From Planctomicrobium piriforme (lineage in GTDB: Bacteria; Planctomycetota; Planctomycetia; Planctomycetales; Planctomycetaceae): DNA of 64,000 bases. The notes beneath the pieces are model-generated. The model saw only the letters and a program-made list of their open reading frames with translations. It did no database searches and was not told the DNA's origin. Location of the stretch: assembly GCA_945860955.1 (NCBI GenBank), contig CAMATH010000020.1, forward strand, positions 1 through 64,000, given 5' to 3'. Both the position numbers and the translations under genes were made by a program. This document shows positions 33,786-47,201 of the stretch, piece by piece (positions within the stretch are counted from its first letter, which is position 1; each line of letters starts with the position of its first letter).

Positions 33786-36164
33786 TTACCGGTCGACCCG
33801 CAATTCCGGGCGGCTCGTGCGGAGTTTCTCGACTCCTGCCGCAGTCACCCGGGTACGATTCAGTCGAATGCGTTTCAGTGAGGAATACGCTCCCAGTGCT
33901 GATAACCCCGCGTCGGTCACTTTCGCCCCGGTGAGATCGAGCCATTCGAGTTTTCTCAGCGGCTCGAATGCCTTCAACCCCGCGTCGGTCAACATCGGAC
34001 CCGCGAATCCTTCGGAATACAGGAGTTCCAGCCGACGGAGTTCTTGCAGTCCCGCCAGTCTCGGCAACCCTGCGTCGGTGATCGCCATCAGACTCAAATT
34101 CAATTCGCGCAATTCCACAAGTTCGCCAATCTGGGATAAGCCGGCGTCGGTCACCTTGTTGCCATACAAATCGAGTCGCCACAGCTTCTTGAGCGCGGTC
34201 AATGAATTCAGCCCCGCGTCGCTGATTCCCCGTTTCTCAAACCCCGTCTTCTTGAGAACCAGCGCCCGCAACCCGGACAATCGCCCCAGCGCGTCGCAGG
34301 CATCGTCGTGAATCCCATCGCAGACCTCCAGATCGAGCGCCTGAAGTTCCGGCAGTCGCTGGAGCTCCTCGATTCCCGCCGTTGAAACCGTGGTTCCCGT
34401 CAGGACCAAAACTCGCAACGCGTCACACCCTCGAAGCGCCGTGAGATCCGTTTCCTGCAATTCGCGACAGTGTTCCAGATTCAACCCGACCAACCGGGGG
34501 AGACTCCGCAGACGTTTCAAGGATTCTCCCCGCACACTCGTTCCCGCCAGACTCACAATCACCGGTTCGTCCAATGCCCGCAGCGGTCGCAACACCGATT
34601 CGGGAATCGCCCCTTCCTCCAGTTGCTTCTCCGCGATCGTACAAATCACCGGAAGCACGGCGGGTGTACGTTCCTTATCAGAGACCGCAAACACATACAG
34701 ACGATGCCCGATCGATACGTCGGTCTTTGAATCGAAGACCAACCGGTCCCCTTCCACTCGGGCTGTCTTAAAGAGCGGGAGAGAGTTGTCCAGTTCAGTC
34801 ACAGATCGCGCGGTTTGACCGGCCGGTTCCCTCCCTTCCGCCGACCGTACGTCGTACGCCAGCAGCGTATCCTGCTCGCGGAGGTACAGCCGACCGTTAG
34901 CGACCACGGGATGCGCCCAACTGTCGCCTCCCGCCGTGGCGACTTGCAATGTCCCCTGCACTTCGAACCCCTCGGTGTTCGCCGCCAGGAGCGCGACCAA
35001 ACCGTTCTGGTAACGAAAATACAACCGGTCCCCCGCAGAGACCACAGCGGCGGAACCGACCCCTGGCCCCCGCTGCTTCCAATGGATTTTTCCGGTCGCT
35101 AGATCAATGCAGGTGGGTAAACCGTTGTTGCTGCCATGACCGCCAAAGATCTGTTCCCCCACCCGGACGACCCCACCATGGTGATTTTGGAACTGGCCGC
35201 CGGTCAAAAAGTAGACCTCTTCCGCGCGAATTTTGGGTGGCTGATTTACTAATGGCTTATCGTCCGCGACAAGCCGCAATAACACGCTTCCGACGCCATA
35301 CCCATTGGCGGCGAACACCAGATCCCCCTGGACGATCGGCGTCGGGATATTGGCGGTTTGATTGGTGATGCGACCGTAATGCCACAGAAATCGACCATCG
35401 TCGGCGGCGACGGCCACCAGCCCGCGCCCCATCAACTGGACATACTGCTTCACCCCCGCCCCTTCGCTGATCACAATCGACGAAAACGCCGCCCCATCCC
35501 GTCCCGCCTCCCCCAGATCGGGAAATCGGCTGAGCCAATGCGACTGGCCGGTTCCCTTGTCGAGAGCGACGATCTGCGCTCCCTCTCCACCCGGTGTGCA
35601 GATCAGGCGATCGCCGTCGATCAGTGGAGATTCGCCATATCCCCGGCCCGACATCAAGCGTCCGCCAAAATCCGCCAAGAGATCGCGCCGCCAGATCCGT
35701 TCGCCGGTCGCGGACTCGAGACACACCAACTGACCATCCGGACCCAGCGCATAGACACGGTCCCCGTCGGCGGTGGGTGTCGAACAGGGATTGCGCGAGG
35801 TCGTTCCGATTTTGGTCGACCAGATCGGTTCGCCGGTCTGGGAGTTCCTCGCGGTGACGATCACGTCCCCCTCGCGGGCACCCAGCGTGAACAGCCGGCC
35901 GTTTTCCACGACCACGCTCGCATAGCCGGTTCCAACCCCGTCGACTTGCCACGCCAGCGGCGGTCCCCCCTCGGGCCATTTCGCGAGCAGCCCCTTTTCG
36001 AGGGACACCCCATCACGCCGGGGGCCGCGCCATTGGGGCCAGTCGTCCGCACGCGCGATCGTCAGGAACGATTCGCCAACGCAGAGACTCGCGAACAGGG
36101 CCAGACGGATTGCATTCGGCCCAAATCCCGTTCGCTGACCGATCCCGTGTCGCTGTCGAAACAT
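33786..36164 (-). CDS. PQQ-like beta-propeller fused to leucine-rich repeats
   Basis: 792 residues from ATG 36164, chosen because GGAGG lies 8 bases upstream. A signal peptide (IRLALFASLCVGESFLTIARA) is followed by a PQQ-like propeller (about 40-410; WPQWRGPRRDGVSLEKGLL, GDVIVTARNSQTGEPIWS, GDRVYALGPDGQLVCLESATGERIWRR). A linker of about 110 residues leads into leucine-rich repeats of the T-D-A-G-L type (LGLNLEHCRELQ, KLWRLDLYGNKVTDAGLSQIG, LRELNLSLMAITDAGLPRLA, KLEWLDLTGAKVTDAGLSAL). The pairing of two protein-binding folds on one exported chain suggests an extracellular recognition or scaffold protein. It lies 102 bases from the end of the giant LRR protein on the same strand; the two LRR types are alike, so they may share origin. 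Confidence 0.85.
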   Translation of the reverse strand: MFRQRHGIGQRTGFGPNAIRLALFASLCVGESFLTIARADDWPQWRGPRRDGVSLEKGLLAKWPEGGPPLAWQVDGVGTGYASVVVENGRLFTLGAREGDVIVTARNSQTGEPIWSTKIGTTSRNPCSTPTADGDRVYALGPDGQLVCLESATGERIWRRDLLADFGGRLMSGRGYGESPLIDGDRLICTPGGEGAQIVALDKGTGQSHWLSRFPDLGEAGRDGAAFSSIVISEGAGVKQYVQLMGRGLVAVAADDGRFLWHYGRITNQTANIPTPIVQGDLVFAANGYGVGSVLLRLVADDKPLVNQPPKIRAEEVYFLTGGQFQNHHGGVVRVGEQIFGGHGSNNGLPTCIDLATGKIHWKQRGPGVGSAAVVSAGDRLYFRYQNGLVALLAANTEGFEVQGTLQVATAGGDSWAHPVVANGRLYLREQDTLLAYDVRSAEGREPAGQTARSVTELDNSLPLFKTARVEGDRLVFDSKTDVSIGHRLYVFAVSDKERTPAVLPVICTIAEKQLEEGAIPESVLRPLRALDEPVIVSLAGTSVRGESLKRLRSLPRLVGLNLEHCRELQETDLTALRGCDALRVLVLTGTTVSTAGIEELQRLPELQALDLEVCDGIHDDACDALGRLSGLRALVLKKTGFEKRGISDAGLNSLTALKKLWRLDLYGNKVTDAGLSQIGELVELRELNLSLMAITDAGLPRLAGLQELRRLELLYSEGFAGPMLTDAGLKAFEPLRKLEWLDLTGAKVTDAGLSALGAYSSLKRIRLNRTRVTAAGVEKLRTSRPELRVDR

Positions 36165-36266
36165 CGTGTCCACCTCCGCAGGAATTCCGATCGGCCGACG
36201 TGATCGCACCCCGCGCTCAGCGGAGTGTCCCCACCGTCCAACCGGTTGACTCTCGCAGAGATGGTA

Positions 36267-42200: not shown

Positions 42201-42851
42201 CGGAACTTGAACCAGTGCCGACTGAAACACAGCGACAGTCCGACGCACCCCCAGTTGGTCAGCCGTCCGGTTCAGAAGGGATCGAATCTGGTCCGGGACC
42301 GGGGACGTGCCAACCGATTTCAACCGCTGAATCGTCAACCAACTGATCACCGGACGAATGGCGAATGCGAGAACACCAACACACCACACCAGGACCAGCA
42401 CGGGCAGCCAAGGTCTGAGCGCGGACTGAAGCCTGTCAATCTGATTTTCCGCAGACATCACGACCGAGGTCGGACTCGCGGAAGGTTCCACCTCGTGATC
42501 GACCGGATCAGCCTGAACGGTTTCAAAGACGACCGGAGGGGCCGGCACCGCAACTGGCCCCGTCGCGATGGGTTGGTTCGCGGAATCCGCTTCTTCGCCG
42601 AGCGCGGTTTGCGTGCGCATCGCGGAGAGTTGTCGTCCGTCGGGAATCGCAAACCAGGTGATCAGCGGCATCAGTGTGACCACGGCCAAAGCGACGAGCA
42701 GTGACGCGTACCGCGATTGAGCCGACGATCGGCGCAAGAAGCCGTGGACGAGAAATGCCAGGGTGGCGATGACCAGGAACTGCCACGCCGAGTGAATCAA
42801 CACCCAGCCGATCTTTTCGACAACTTCGGGAGCAACAGGCGACCAGGTCAT
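36267..42851 (-). CDS. Giant BlaR1-like (M56) membrane metallopeptidase fused to thioredoxin-like, carboxypeptidase-regulatory and LRR domains
   Basis: 2194 residues, against about 600 for BlaR1. Residues 1-370 are the M56 module: helices near 14-38, 48-68, 148-168 and 349-371, zinc motif HELAH (about 247) and DERENCCDD (about 286). Residues about 400-650 resemble a lipoprotein-localisation-like beta domain. About 710-860 is a redoxin/TlpA-like fold lacking the CxxC pair (FFFGGDAVQPTP replaces it). From about 1000 to 1650 come at least five carboxypeptidase-regulatory-like beta domains (ITGRVVSTRGEPIENA, IVGTLVDDVTGEPVEGA, ITGTVVDTQGKPLPGA). About 1690-1790 resembles an STN-like unit; 1800-2173 is LRR. 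The start overlaps the BlaI stop as ATGA. It is probably a sensor whose periplasmic domains detect a signal and whose protease inactivates BlaI. Confidence 0.85.
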   Translation of the reverse strand: MTWSPVAPEVVEKIGWVLIHSAWQFLVIATLAFLVHGFLRRSSAQSRYASLLVALAVVTLMPLITWFAIPDGRQLSAMRTQTALGEEADSANQPIATGPVAVPAPPVVFETVQADPVDHEVEPSASPTSVVMSAENQIDRLQSALRPWLPVLVLVWCVGVLAFAIRPVISWLTIQRLKSVGTSPVPDQIRSLLNRTADQLGVRRTVAVFQSALVQVPIVVGYLRPAILLPASVVCGLPVSQLEAILAHELAHIQRHDYLFNLIQTLVETLFFYHPAVWWISSRIRDERENCCDDIAVALIGNRLEYGRALLAIEERRGMTPALSVSWGGSSLLERTRRLLGREANNRIPGAGAVIGLGLLLVALVSAGVWAGTQRPKDNETVREEERPDSDDSQNGANADPTPAEIADRIEAVMNRYDSVEYEVESTEIRNANAFTNNPPMAVKGHSSVSYLGDSTRWYADENSLLLNSGTKSLYNKRTISRYDGTSYWVIQDQRLTIGENELANSRHAPRTFFWHAGGHHTRLLHALRKYDVAIDRHAEVNGHDCLVLIATSPKDPEAAGNPRAQENQFRYEITLSPAQSWLPIRVAVELGGKPHAVETLEELRQSPDGDWYPGLIHFQSFAPGEFMLERSTRVTEFRVRGEFQESEFSHPTSLPVGYDIVDHRAGLVWHNDAWWPDIKPWFQKNFHWPRPNVAHLTSLGSFSDPVLNGEPAPPIEAAQWLNRDPGGWNRPDRKLTILFFFGGDAVQPTPGWIAGLKGLQQRYNATGLDIVGVASAPAKPEAVKRLLSALDLDWPVAIDAPSDRDAARPLGKTATAYRMRSYAGVFLIDAEGKVLIVDPNERVAGLKISQLEYLIRYQLLSSAERETGRPTAAQIQTADDDPRIADDAFGSVGNEWKRLRKLAPGDGRLWALLKFPGGVPPGDGKTATLTITPEFRMLSSTTPGGWFVTHDDDLPIPSDIGCDLFLLPKGTYRVTVKRPGFATLERRVTLPAVDAGKPLEFEMTPGDSITGRVVSTRGEPIENAVVKAVERHHLPHSLTQYTTAHLPREPRTTDVDGQFAFTNLYEGMYTFEITAAGFETLRVTHLPVGRQNQKIVLRTPAEEREREAAAREREDQARRAADAPESLSIVGTLVDDVTGEPVEGATIACGAFINETGGGGANAVTDAQGRFRLVPPSAGIYNVWVKKYEVDPQMTAIADDGVRVILGKPAQSHLRLVKGRRVAGRLVDPAGDPVEGSTIGCYSLAHPQSTGGVESRKTDAQGEFEFHLPPGPVRVYVMGALFRDGLTADASFEVPDEDELPTLRLKLVKVEQRFGVPDWVRRSTPGTQVLSQKKAADITGTVVDTQGKPLPGALVFRTDGPLVPTGAKGEFRVAVDKGTQLVMFAFVEGYHVWFGTPTAGDVLKIVMETKERPKRIPVKPSSTRDESSQKSQEPDDRETGPDKADKPQAEAAPGGKPGPGAKEQARNSKLKVRYNIPGVTETAAIVVECNGEPFGTESNGRTTSYGLAPGKSLELTDLPSGDCFVARNRRVELVRLSPTNFLTRDVLLDARRFQLQVNDDQTVDFSRPNGKPLKGRVLGLKESGLERALISVCSEAIRDARMAQRAGERGAGTVYDIRPCAADGTFETEPLLPGRYVVIAGGYVAPPSSENYKLSDLEPRYVAIARVEVTKTDPPEHVELRLADTRTLEHPVTVDATEISVREAMAVACERADVGLEFDREALRAVGFDGSESREIHADDRPLGEVLRELIRWNENPEVTLEFREATVTLTTHSAQAARLKARLPEWLRPLYGNGLIAQLDDSGAVISLSVNGIADDAFLEKLKRLPKLRELHIEVTKEITVEGLTHLVDLPALEKLSCYDVNAEGQGLGDAVLVAAARISTLRSLSLNHCGVTNAGLEPLLSMPELRELHLGQNLLSDPGLKYLAGLKELRTLNLNCTVGSVHYGRMQFTDVGLAHLARLSKLEDLDLTGQPISARSLVFPRLKNLSVGGSEIDDEAAAQIAKCRDLRSLSLVYSSISNDGLTAIATIPQLVQLNIDSDQIGDEGIAHLSDMKSLESLSLRSTRVGDRSLGHLAKIGSLRRLDLHGSGVPGSFTGELFTVAALKQLQALPNLQSLSIQNLRSRNGFQDLAALNRLQSLSLFMSNISADDIEFLEEQLPDTQVFAASGGGKSKLRSKKGAKPGTTVVLPADPK

Positions 42852-43237
42852 GGGGATTGTCCTTCGAGTTCGTCGAGCAGACGACGGACTTCCGCCAGCT
42901 CGGCGGGGGTGGCCTTGGAATGGGCGAGAGCCTGCAGCACCAGACTCATGGCGGCACCGTCATACACTTTTTCGATCAGATCACTGACCATCCGTTGCCC
43001 GGTTTTCTCGCGCGACTGCACCGGCCGATAAATATGCGGCTGAGCGTTTTCGTCGCGTTTCACCAGCCCCTTGTCGAGCATGATCGACAACATTTTGACG
43101 GTGGTCGAGTAGTTGGTTTCCTTCTCGGTCTGGAGACGGGCGTGAATCTCCCGGACCGGACTGGGCCCCAGTTCCCACAGGATTCGCAGAATCTGCAACT
43201 CGACCTCGGTCGGTTGCCCGGCCACATGCTTCTTCAT
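42848..43237 (-). CDS. blaI: BlaI/MecI/CopY-family transcriptional repressor
   Basis: 129 residues from ATG 43237, with GGGAGGAG 8 bases upstream; the longer frame starting at 43258 lacks such a site. The winged-helix core reads PTEVELQILRILWELGPSPVREIHARL, then ETNYSTTVKMLSIMLDKGLVKRD, and HIYRPVQSREKTGQRMVSDLIEKVYDG in the dimerisation part, including the QSR...T region around the site cut in BlaI homologues. As in bla/mec operons it precedes a BlaR1-type gene, here overlapping it by ATGA. Two perfect dyads at 43274-43315 cover the promoter and are its likely operators, giving autorepression of both genes. The inducer is unlikely to be presumed beta-lactam, since the receptor's sensor part is unlike BlaR1's penicillin-binding domain. 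Confidence 0.92.
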   Translation of the reverse strand: MKKHVAGQPTEVELQILRILWELGPSPVREIHARLQTEKETNYSTTVKMLSIMLDKGLVKRDENAQPHIYRPVQSREKTGQRMVSDLIEKVYDGAAMSLVLQALAHSKATPAELAEVRRLLDELEGQSP

Positions 43238-43273
43238 CGATCGACTCCTCCCATCCACGTTCGCGAACCCGTG

Positions 43274-43321
43274 TAGCGAAGACTTTCGCTATCAGATTAG
43301 CGAAAGTCTTCGCTATGTCAA
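43274..43321 (-). promoter_or_regulatory. BlaI promoter with twin operators
   Basis: On the minus strand, a consensus -35 TTGACA (43316-43321) and a poor -10 TAATCT (43294-43299) are 16 bases apart. Operator 1 TAGCGAAGACTTTCGCTA fills the spacer (43298-43315) and operator 2, its reverse complement, lies just downstream (43274-43291). Each is itself a dyad TAGCGAA-N4-TTCGCTA, and centres are 24 bases apart. This is the layout expected of repressor sites that block RNA polymerase, and the gene directly downstream encodes the BlaI repressor. Confidence 0.85.
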
Positions 43322-43615: not shown

Positions 43616-43951
43616 ATGAGCCCCCTACTGATTGCCGCCGCCACCTTTGCTTCTGTCGTTTTGGGTGTGGTAGGTTGTTGTCTGGCGGTTTTGGATATTC
43701 AAACCAAAGCACGTGAAATGGACGCGGACGATCGAGTCAAACTCCAGCAGCGATTGCTGGGGGGAATGGAGTCGTTGGAGGGAAACCCCGTTGCCCCTCC
43801 GGTGACCGGTCGCGGCGACACTCGCCTGAGACAGACCCTTTCGACTGGAACTGCACCAAACAGATTATACCCCGCGCGGCGTCAAATCCGACAATTCGCG
43901 TCCCCAGACCCCATCCGGCTCGCCCGGATGGTGAATGAGATCGACAGCTAG
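43616..43951 (+). pseudogene. Short ORF with one hydrophobic segment, possible gene remnant
   Basis: 111 residues from ATG 43616. The N-terminus (LLIAAATFASVVLGVVGCCLAVLDI) is a clear membrane or signal segment, followed by about 25 residues with plausible coding character (EMDADDRVKLQQRLLGG). The rest runs through the first copy of a hairpin repeat and looks non-coding. The opening resembles starts of TadB/TadC (GspF-type) secretion proteins, so it may be a decayed 5' end of such a gene. Only a weak call; it may also be a small membrane protein. Confidence 0.35.
43906..43942 (+). repeat. Covarying hairpin repeat, copy 1
   Basis: AGACC, then stem CCATCCGG, loop CTCGC, stem CCGGATGG, then TGAATGAGATC. 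An 8-bp perfect hairpin with conserved flanks; part of a three-copy family with copies at 43976 and 44108. Confidence 0.8.
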
Positions 43952-45845: not shown

Positions 45846-47201
45846 TTATCGGCAGCGACGGCAGACCTTCTGGGCACAAGGATCCGGGCAGCAGACCGTG
45901 ACGGGAACCTGTCGGCAGACCGTCTTGGGAACGCAGCGGGTCTGCGTCACACAGACCTCACGCGGCACACAGCGGGTCTGGTAGGTGTAGGTCGTGTAGT
46001 TCACCTGACGGGGGGTGCAGTACGCGACGCGGCGGGTCTTGGTTTCCTGAACCATGGTGCAAGTGGTGCAGGGAATCCGTCGGGTGCAGACCTGCTGGGT
46101 CATCGTGCAGGTGGTGCAGGGGATCCGGCGGGTGCAGACTTGTGAGACCATCCGGCACGTCCGGCAGGGAATCCGGCGGGTGCAGACCTGTTGGGTCATC
46201 GTGCAGGTGGTGTAGGGAATCTGGCGACGGCAAACCTGCTGTTCCATGTGGCAGACCGTGTAGGGGACCTGCTTCGTAACGGTGTGCGGGATCTGCCGGC
46301 AGACCGTGTAAGGAACCTGGCAGTGCTTCACTTCCTGGACCCAGCGGGTGCAGGTGACGGGGACTTGTTCTTCGCGGGGAACCCAGACCTTGCGGCAGCA
46401 GACGGTCGGGGGGCACTGCCGGCATTCAACTCGGCAGGGACCGGGCTTGTAGCAGCAGCAGCAAGTGCAGGGATCGAATTCCCAGCAGCCGGGATCCTGG
46501 ACGGTGACCTGAATGGTCGGTCCGGGAATCGTCTCGGTTTCGGTTTTCCATTCGCCGGTGCAGATCGTCTTATAGGTGGTCTCGGTGACCGGCCGGCAGG
46601 TCGTCTGGCAGACATCGCGGTAGTGGGTTTCCGAAACGGTCTGGAAGACCGTCTGGCACACTTCGCGGTAGCAGGTCTGGTAGACGGGCTTGCAGACGGT
46701 GTAGCAGCTCTCTCTGTAGTGAGTCTGGTAAACCGGTCGGCAGACGGTGTACTGTTCTTCGCGGTAGTGGGTCTCGTACACCGGCCGGGAGACAGTGTAC
46801 TGCTCTTCGCGGTAGGTGGTCTGGTACACCGGTCGGCAGACAGTGTACTGTTCTTCGCGGTAGGTGGTCTGGTACACCGGCCGACAGACAGTGTACGGCT
46901 CATCGCGGTAGCACTGGTCGTAGACCGTCTTGGTGCAGTTCTGCGGAATGGGTTCGCAGATTGTGTCGTAGACGGTTTTTTTGCAGGTGTAGGTCTCTGG
47001 TTCCCACACCGTCTCCTGGACGGTCTTGTAGCACGTCATCGTGCAGACCGGTGCCGGGCACGGGTCGGAACACTGGTCACTGCAGGCACTTGAGCAGCAA
47101 TTGAAGCTCGCGGCACCGCAATAGCGGGCGTGAGCCTCCCCGGTGAAGCAGTTCGCCAGCAGCATGGCGAACAGCAAGGGGAACACAGTTCTGAGACTCA
47201 T
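45846..47201 (-). CDS. Cysteine-rich YTV-repeat cell-wall-type protein
   Basis: 451 residues. A signal peptide (SLRTVFPLLFAMLLANCFTGEAHA) precedes a chain of short repeats. The first half repeats RPVYQTTYREEQYTVC units; the second repeats CTRRIPCTTCTMTQQV units; a cluster CTCCCCYKPGPC separates them. Tyr-Thr-Val motifs and dense cysteines are the mark of the planctomycete YTV proteins described in Rhodopirellula baltica and linked to the proteinaceous, disulfide-rich cell wall. Many cysteines could cross-link between chains. I infer a structural role in the envelope. It is a single-gene unit with its own terminator. Confidence 0.92.
   Translation of the reverse strand: MSLRTVFPLLFAMLLANCFTGEAHARYCGAASFNCCSSACSDQCSDPCPAPVCTMTCYKTVQETVWEPETYTCKKTVYDTICEPIPQNCTKTVYDQCYRDEPYTVCRPVYQTTYREEQYTVCRPVYQTTYREEQYTVSRPVYETHYREEQYTVCRPVYQTHYRESCYTVCKPVYQTCYREVCQTVFQTVSETHYRDVCQTTCRPVTETTYKTICTGEWKTETETIPGPTIQVTVQDPGCWEFDPCTCCCCYKPGPCRVECRQCPPTVCCRKVWVPREEQVPVTCTRWVQEVKHCQVPYTVCRQIPHTVTKQVPYTVCHMEQQVCRRQIPYTTCTMTQQVCTRRIPCRTCRMVSQVCTRRIPCTTCTMTQQVCTRRIPCTTCTMVQETKTRRVAYCTPRQVNYTTYTYQTRCVPREVCVTQTRCVPKTVCRQVPVTVCCPDPCAQKVCRRCR

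Follow-up and report, generated by a model that had tools for sequence, protein, structure and literature searches.

Two perfect dyads upstream of a blaI gene of Planctomicrobium piriforme very probably serve as operators for a blaI-M56 unit that regulates itself: the repressor would act on the unit's own promoter, and its regulon would be essentially that unit. This reading draws on the anatomy of the promoter in the window (the 64,000-nucleotide stretch of DNA analysed here), on comparison with relatives in the family and phylum, and on the way in which the type of half-site changes with the recognition helix of the repressor. The same comparison supports the view, advanced in a sequence-only reading of this DNA, that the dyads are the operator of the module: 37 of 39 exact copies in the family lie upstream of blaI, TTG precedes a dyad at a fixed distance in 51 of 52 promoters, and helix and half-site switch together.

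Two perfect dyads over the predicted blaI promoter

Both dyads, O1 and O2, are copies of TAGCGAA-N4-TTCGCTA with 0 mismatches in a sequence check of the window, and their centres lie 24 bp apart. On the plus strand, positions 43274-43291 read TAGCGAAGACTTTCGCTA and positions 43298-43315 read TAGCGAAAGTCTTCGCTA, each the exact reverse complement of the other, so that the minus strand reads, in order, TTGACA, O1, a gap of 6 bases (ATCTGA), O2, the ribosome site and the ATG (Table 1). The sequence-only reading had described just such a pair of mutually reverse-complementary dyads, one within the -35/-10 spacer and the other downstream of the -10, and the coordinates agree with it on both counts. 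In a scan of the 8.4-Mb genome, O1 and O2 are the only exact matches; for the 14 fixed bases we calculate a chance expectation of about 0.03, and the reversed pattern, as a control, gave 0 matches.

Table 1. Positions of the genes, promoter elements and operators in the window, with the basis for each.
Feature	Coordinates	Strand	Basis
-35 element TTGACA	43316..43321	-	Position; TTG exactly 6 bp before the dyad in same-type promoters
Operator O1	43298..43315	-	TAGCGAAGACTTTCGCTA; fills the -35/-10 spacer; 0/18 changes against the sister species G002; conserved in orthologues
-10 candidate TAATCT	43294..43299	-	First TA shared with O1; 16-bp spacer to the -35
Operator O2	43274..43291	-	TAGCGAAAGTCTTCGCTA; over the expected transcription start; 0/18 changes against G002
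BlaI-family winged-helix repressor, 129 aa	42848..43237	-	PF03965, 97.6 bits; ATG with GGGAGGAG ribosome site
M56 (BlaR1-type) membrane metalloprotease, 2194 aa	36267..42851	-	Pfam; HELAH motif
PQQ-propeller and LRR protein	33786..36209	-	57 bp downstream of the M56 gene

The terminal TA of O1 doubles as bases 1-2 of the -10 candidate, which agrees with TATAAT at 3/6 positions. Because the hexamer matches no better than this, a consensus promoter scan called no promoter in the O1/O2 region, and the promoter claim therefore rests on conservation and not on consensus. In promoters of the same type, TTG stands exactly 6 bp ahead of a dyad in 51/52 cases, where O1 is defined as the TTG-preceded dyad and chance, with about two dyads per promoter, would by our arithmetic give this in about 4%. 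The corresponding -10 positions carry TA at 1-2 in 51/51 promoters and T at 6 in 47/51. In 47 related promoters O1 is followed, 21-34 bp downstream, by a second dyad; with this range of spacings there is no fixed phase, and we rejected helical phasing between O1 and O2. Together, these comparisons support the placement of O1 and O2 over the predicted promoter of the blaI-M56 module, whose anatomy is unusually clear for this family.

Conservation across relatives

The comparison drew on sequence upstream of about 100 different BlaI genes. Dyads that follow a T[AG][AG]CGAA-N4-TTCG[CT][CT]A-like pattern are present in 47/49 orthologues that share 57% identity or more and whose upstream sequence is available; the other two have none, and a few orthologues show a single strict dyad. 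Against the sister species, O1, O2 and the -35 element show 0/42 changes, compared with 38/172 (22%) in the flanks outside the operators.

The exact dyad occurs in 39 copies in 26 genomes in a scan of 170 genomes of the family, and 37 of these copies are directly upstream of blaI genes. One of the 37, in G188, precedes a gene outside the orthologue list; translation showed that this gene encodes a diverged BlaI, which shares the helix NYSTTVKMLAVM. The exact dyad in G011 lies at the start of a contig, and the blaI orthologue of that genome ends another contig. The last of the 39, a single dyad with no blaI alongside, lies in an AT-rich stretch (G091:C390:2695-2712), either by chance or as an orphan site. 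Beyond the family, a sample of 392 genomes of the phylum yielded one exact site, in G398, with no BlaI-like reading frame seen beside it.

The repressor and its M56 partner

The PF03965 (Penicillinase_R) score of the repressor far exceeds the cut-off of 22.6 bits. Its start is likely to be the ATG at 43237, 7 nt after GGGAGGAG, rather than the GTG at 43258. The structure model (mean pLDDT 79.7) has helices at residues 11-23, 28-39 and 43-56, the last being the recognition helix, together with a wing of two strands. Its best PDB matches in a Foldseek search are MecI/BlaI structures, including the DNA complexes 1sax, 2d45 and 1xsd, and also 1okr (E-values from 7e-6 to 6e-5 and TM of about 0.6 against 1sax, 1okr and 1xsd), and the predicted fold is the MecI/BlaI winged helix. 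In Staphylococcus aureus the repressor is cleaved at the Asn101-Phe102 bond (PMC9834060), which aligns, within a conserved SLVL context, with Gln102-Ala103 of this BlaI, and a cut site here, if there is one, would therefore differ.

The blaI stop and the M56 start overlap as ATGA (42851-42848). The M56 domain itself (PF05569) scores 118 bits and carries HExxH as HELAH, and Pfam recognises AhpC/TSA-like, CarboxypepD_reg and LRR regions in the C-terminal part of the protein. The sequence-only reading had placed a BlaR1-like protease here, overlapping BlaI by ATGA; the repressor, the overlap and the M56 protease all stand, and the likeness to BlaR1 ends at the sensor, as no Pfam match to a penicillin-binding sensor domain was found in this protein or in five related M56 proteins. 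The blaR1_generic profile gives 94.8 bits against a cut-off of 400 and covers the M56 part only. Among the five relatives, of which four adjoin blaI orthologues and one adjoins the paralogue described below, all keep the protease domain, and what accompanies it differs: PQQ repeats, CarboxypepD_reg or no recognised region.

The PQQ/LRR gene is possibly a third gene of the unit, co-transcribed with blaI and the M56 gene. None of the neighbouring genes examined encodes a beta-lactamase or PBP2a, and a 'BlaI/BlaR1' annotation at this locus should not be taken as a sign of beta-lactam resistance. Two further reading frames lie nearby. A small divergent ORF of 111 aa (43616-43951, plus strand) has no Pfam match; it shows 69% identity over 80 residues in the sister species, and was not found as a whole in the other loci. 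A cysteine-rich protein of 451 aa (45846-47201, minus strand) is built of YTVC(K/R)PVYxTxYRE-like repeats.

Which protein probably reads the dyads

At BlaI positions 42, 44, 47, 49 and 51, proteins with TRGCGAA-type half-sites (45 sequences) and those with CTACGAA-type half-sites (28) have no residue in common: the former carry N/T/S, S, V, M and S/A/G, the latter G, T, L, L/I and Q. All of these positions fall in or beside the modelled helix 43-56, and the switch in helix and operator follows the clade, such that shared descent contributes to the pattern. Because this switch combines with the linkage between sites and genes, BlaI is the likely reader of the dyads.

That another regulator binds the dyads, with BlaI merely adjoining, seems very improbable. 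The case for BlaI is comparative, which leaves some room for such a regulator; yet across the 170 genomes the dyads track blaI genes and stand without one only once or twice, the half-site type changes together with the recognition-helix type, and dyads of other kinds lie over the promoters of further BlaI paralogues in this genome. Still harder to credit is that the 42-bp perfect inverted repeat acts as an RNA hairpin, a terminator or attenuator, and not as a protein site, even though the dyads are perfectly reverse-complementary and a 6-base loop separates them. The sequence lacks a T run and was not called as a terminator, and the inferred -10 puts the transcription start inside O2, so the two arms would not be transcribed together. 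The folding of RNA that starts at O2 is at the level of shuffled sequence (z 0.09), and each dyad stays symmetric in relatives while the distance between the dyads varies. We rejected a terminator or attenuator hairpin on the lack of a terminator call and the shuffle-level folding.

Probable width of the regulon and paralogous repressors

A wider role for BlaI, extending to more targets through weaker or single sites, is unlikely as well. With one mismatch or fewer to the dyad, matches elsewhere in the genome are confined to one promoter, that of a close paralogue (62% identical); this promoter bears two sites of the same type, TGGCGAATTCGTTCGCTA and TGGCGAATGAATTCGCCA, and cross-talk there is possible. 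At two mismatches or fewer, the genome holds 18 matches, fewer than the 39 that the reversed pattern gives. A scan with the degenerate pattern TRRCGAANNNNTTCGYYA returned six matches: O1 and O2, a pair at that paralogue promoter, and two single sites inside coding ORFs; its reversed control returned none in this genome. The sequence-only reading had expected a genome-wide motif search to reveal other targets; the scan returned only the paralogue promoter and the ORF-internal singles as extras, and further targets in the genome were rejected, given 2-mismatch matches below the reversed control and extra degenerate sites within ORFs. The dyads are found in dozens of related species and almost nowhere else, so a self-contained two-gene switch, in which BlaI controls only itself and its protease partner, is the most likely interpretation of these sequence comparisons.

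Comparison of seven paralogues (L012, L015, L016, L017, L019, L020 and L021) with G002 shows that each has its own conserved dyad type at its promoter, including elements such as CTACTGG..CCAGTA, CTTCTA..TAGAAG, TGGTAA..TTACCA, TGACTA..TAGTCA and CTACGAA..TTCGTAG. This suggests a set of mutually insulated BlaI switches within one genome. Paralogous repressors with different operators in a single genome offer a natural set for learning how BlaI-type helices read DNA.

The middle four bases of O1 and O2 also deserve attention. Among 33 distinct non-palindromic O1-O2 types, the two quartets are mutually reverse-complementary in 8, compared with 1.2 expected from between-species shuffling (0 of 20,000 shuffles reached 8), and direct identity shows no clear excess. 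Neither the CTACGAA clade nor the pairs formed by O1 with O0, a third, upstream dyad, showed such concerted change. Relatedness among species is only partly controlled, through the use of distinct types, and the excess therefore stays a lead. That operators within one promoter evolve in concert, in a genome where different half-sites would keep the 14 BlaI paralogues separate, is a tentative idea that we hold with less than even confidence. The middle-base pattern would fit a process already described (PMC8604942, PMC8794818), template switching between inverted arms, by which one operator would be copied onto the other.

Proposed mechanism

The anatomy and the comparison point to a most likely sequence of events. 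A BlaI dimer on O1 would cover the -35/-10 spacer and a second dimer on O2 the start site, and the two together would keep RNA polymerase off, such that the unit represses itself. By analogy with the S. aureus and Bacillus licheniformis systems (PMC9834060, PMC3305447), the M56 protein may receive the signal through its large, variable C-terminal region, which presumably lies outside the cytoplasm, and the protease domain would then cut BlaI and free the promoter, as in S. aureus.

Comparison with known systems

A literature search found no description of planctomycete BlaI operators. One of the closest parallels is the S. aureus MecI/BlaI and MecR1/BlaR1 system, which likewise places a BlaI-fold repressor and an M56 protease in one operon with operators in the unit's own promoter. 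It differs in its operator core, which is TACA/TGTA in classical BlaI/MecI systems (PMC7253601), a core that O1 and O2 lack, TAGCGAA-N4-TTCGCTA taking its place; in the penicillin-binding sensor of BlaR1, for which the planctomycete M56 protein has no detected counterpart; and in the Asn-Phe cleavage bond, which is not conserved in the planctomycete BlaI. In Bacillus licheniformis, BlaI is also a dimeric repressor that controls its own operon through several operators (OP1-OP3), and there it has in addition a divergent target, blaP (PMC3305447), whereas no divergent target is evident here. The CopY/CopR repressors, which bind RNYKACANNTGTMRNY, belong to the same superfamily, and their genes are usually preceded by two operators, at spacings of mostly 24-39 bases (mode 26); pneumococcal CopY shows no cooperative binding. 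Unlike the repressor described here, CopY/CopR proteins sense metal, carry CXC motifs and use a different operator (PMC7253601). Set against these systems, the dyads are, by sequence comparison, an operator that is new for a known repressor family and specific to this lineage, one among paralogues with different operators, and a specific predicted operator is now available for a BlaI/M56 clade in Planctomycetota.
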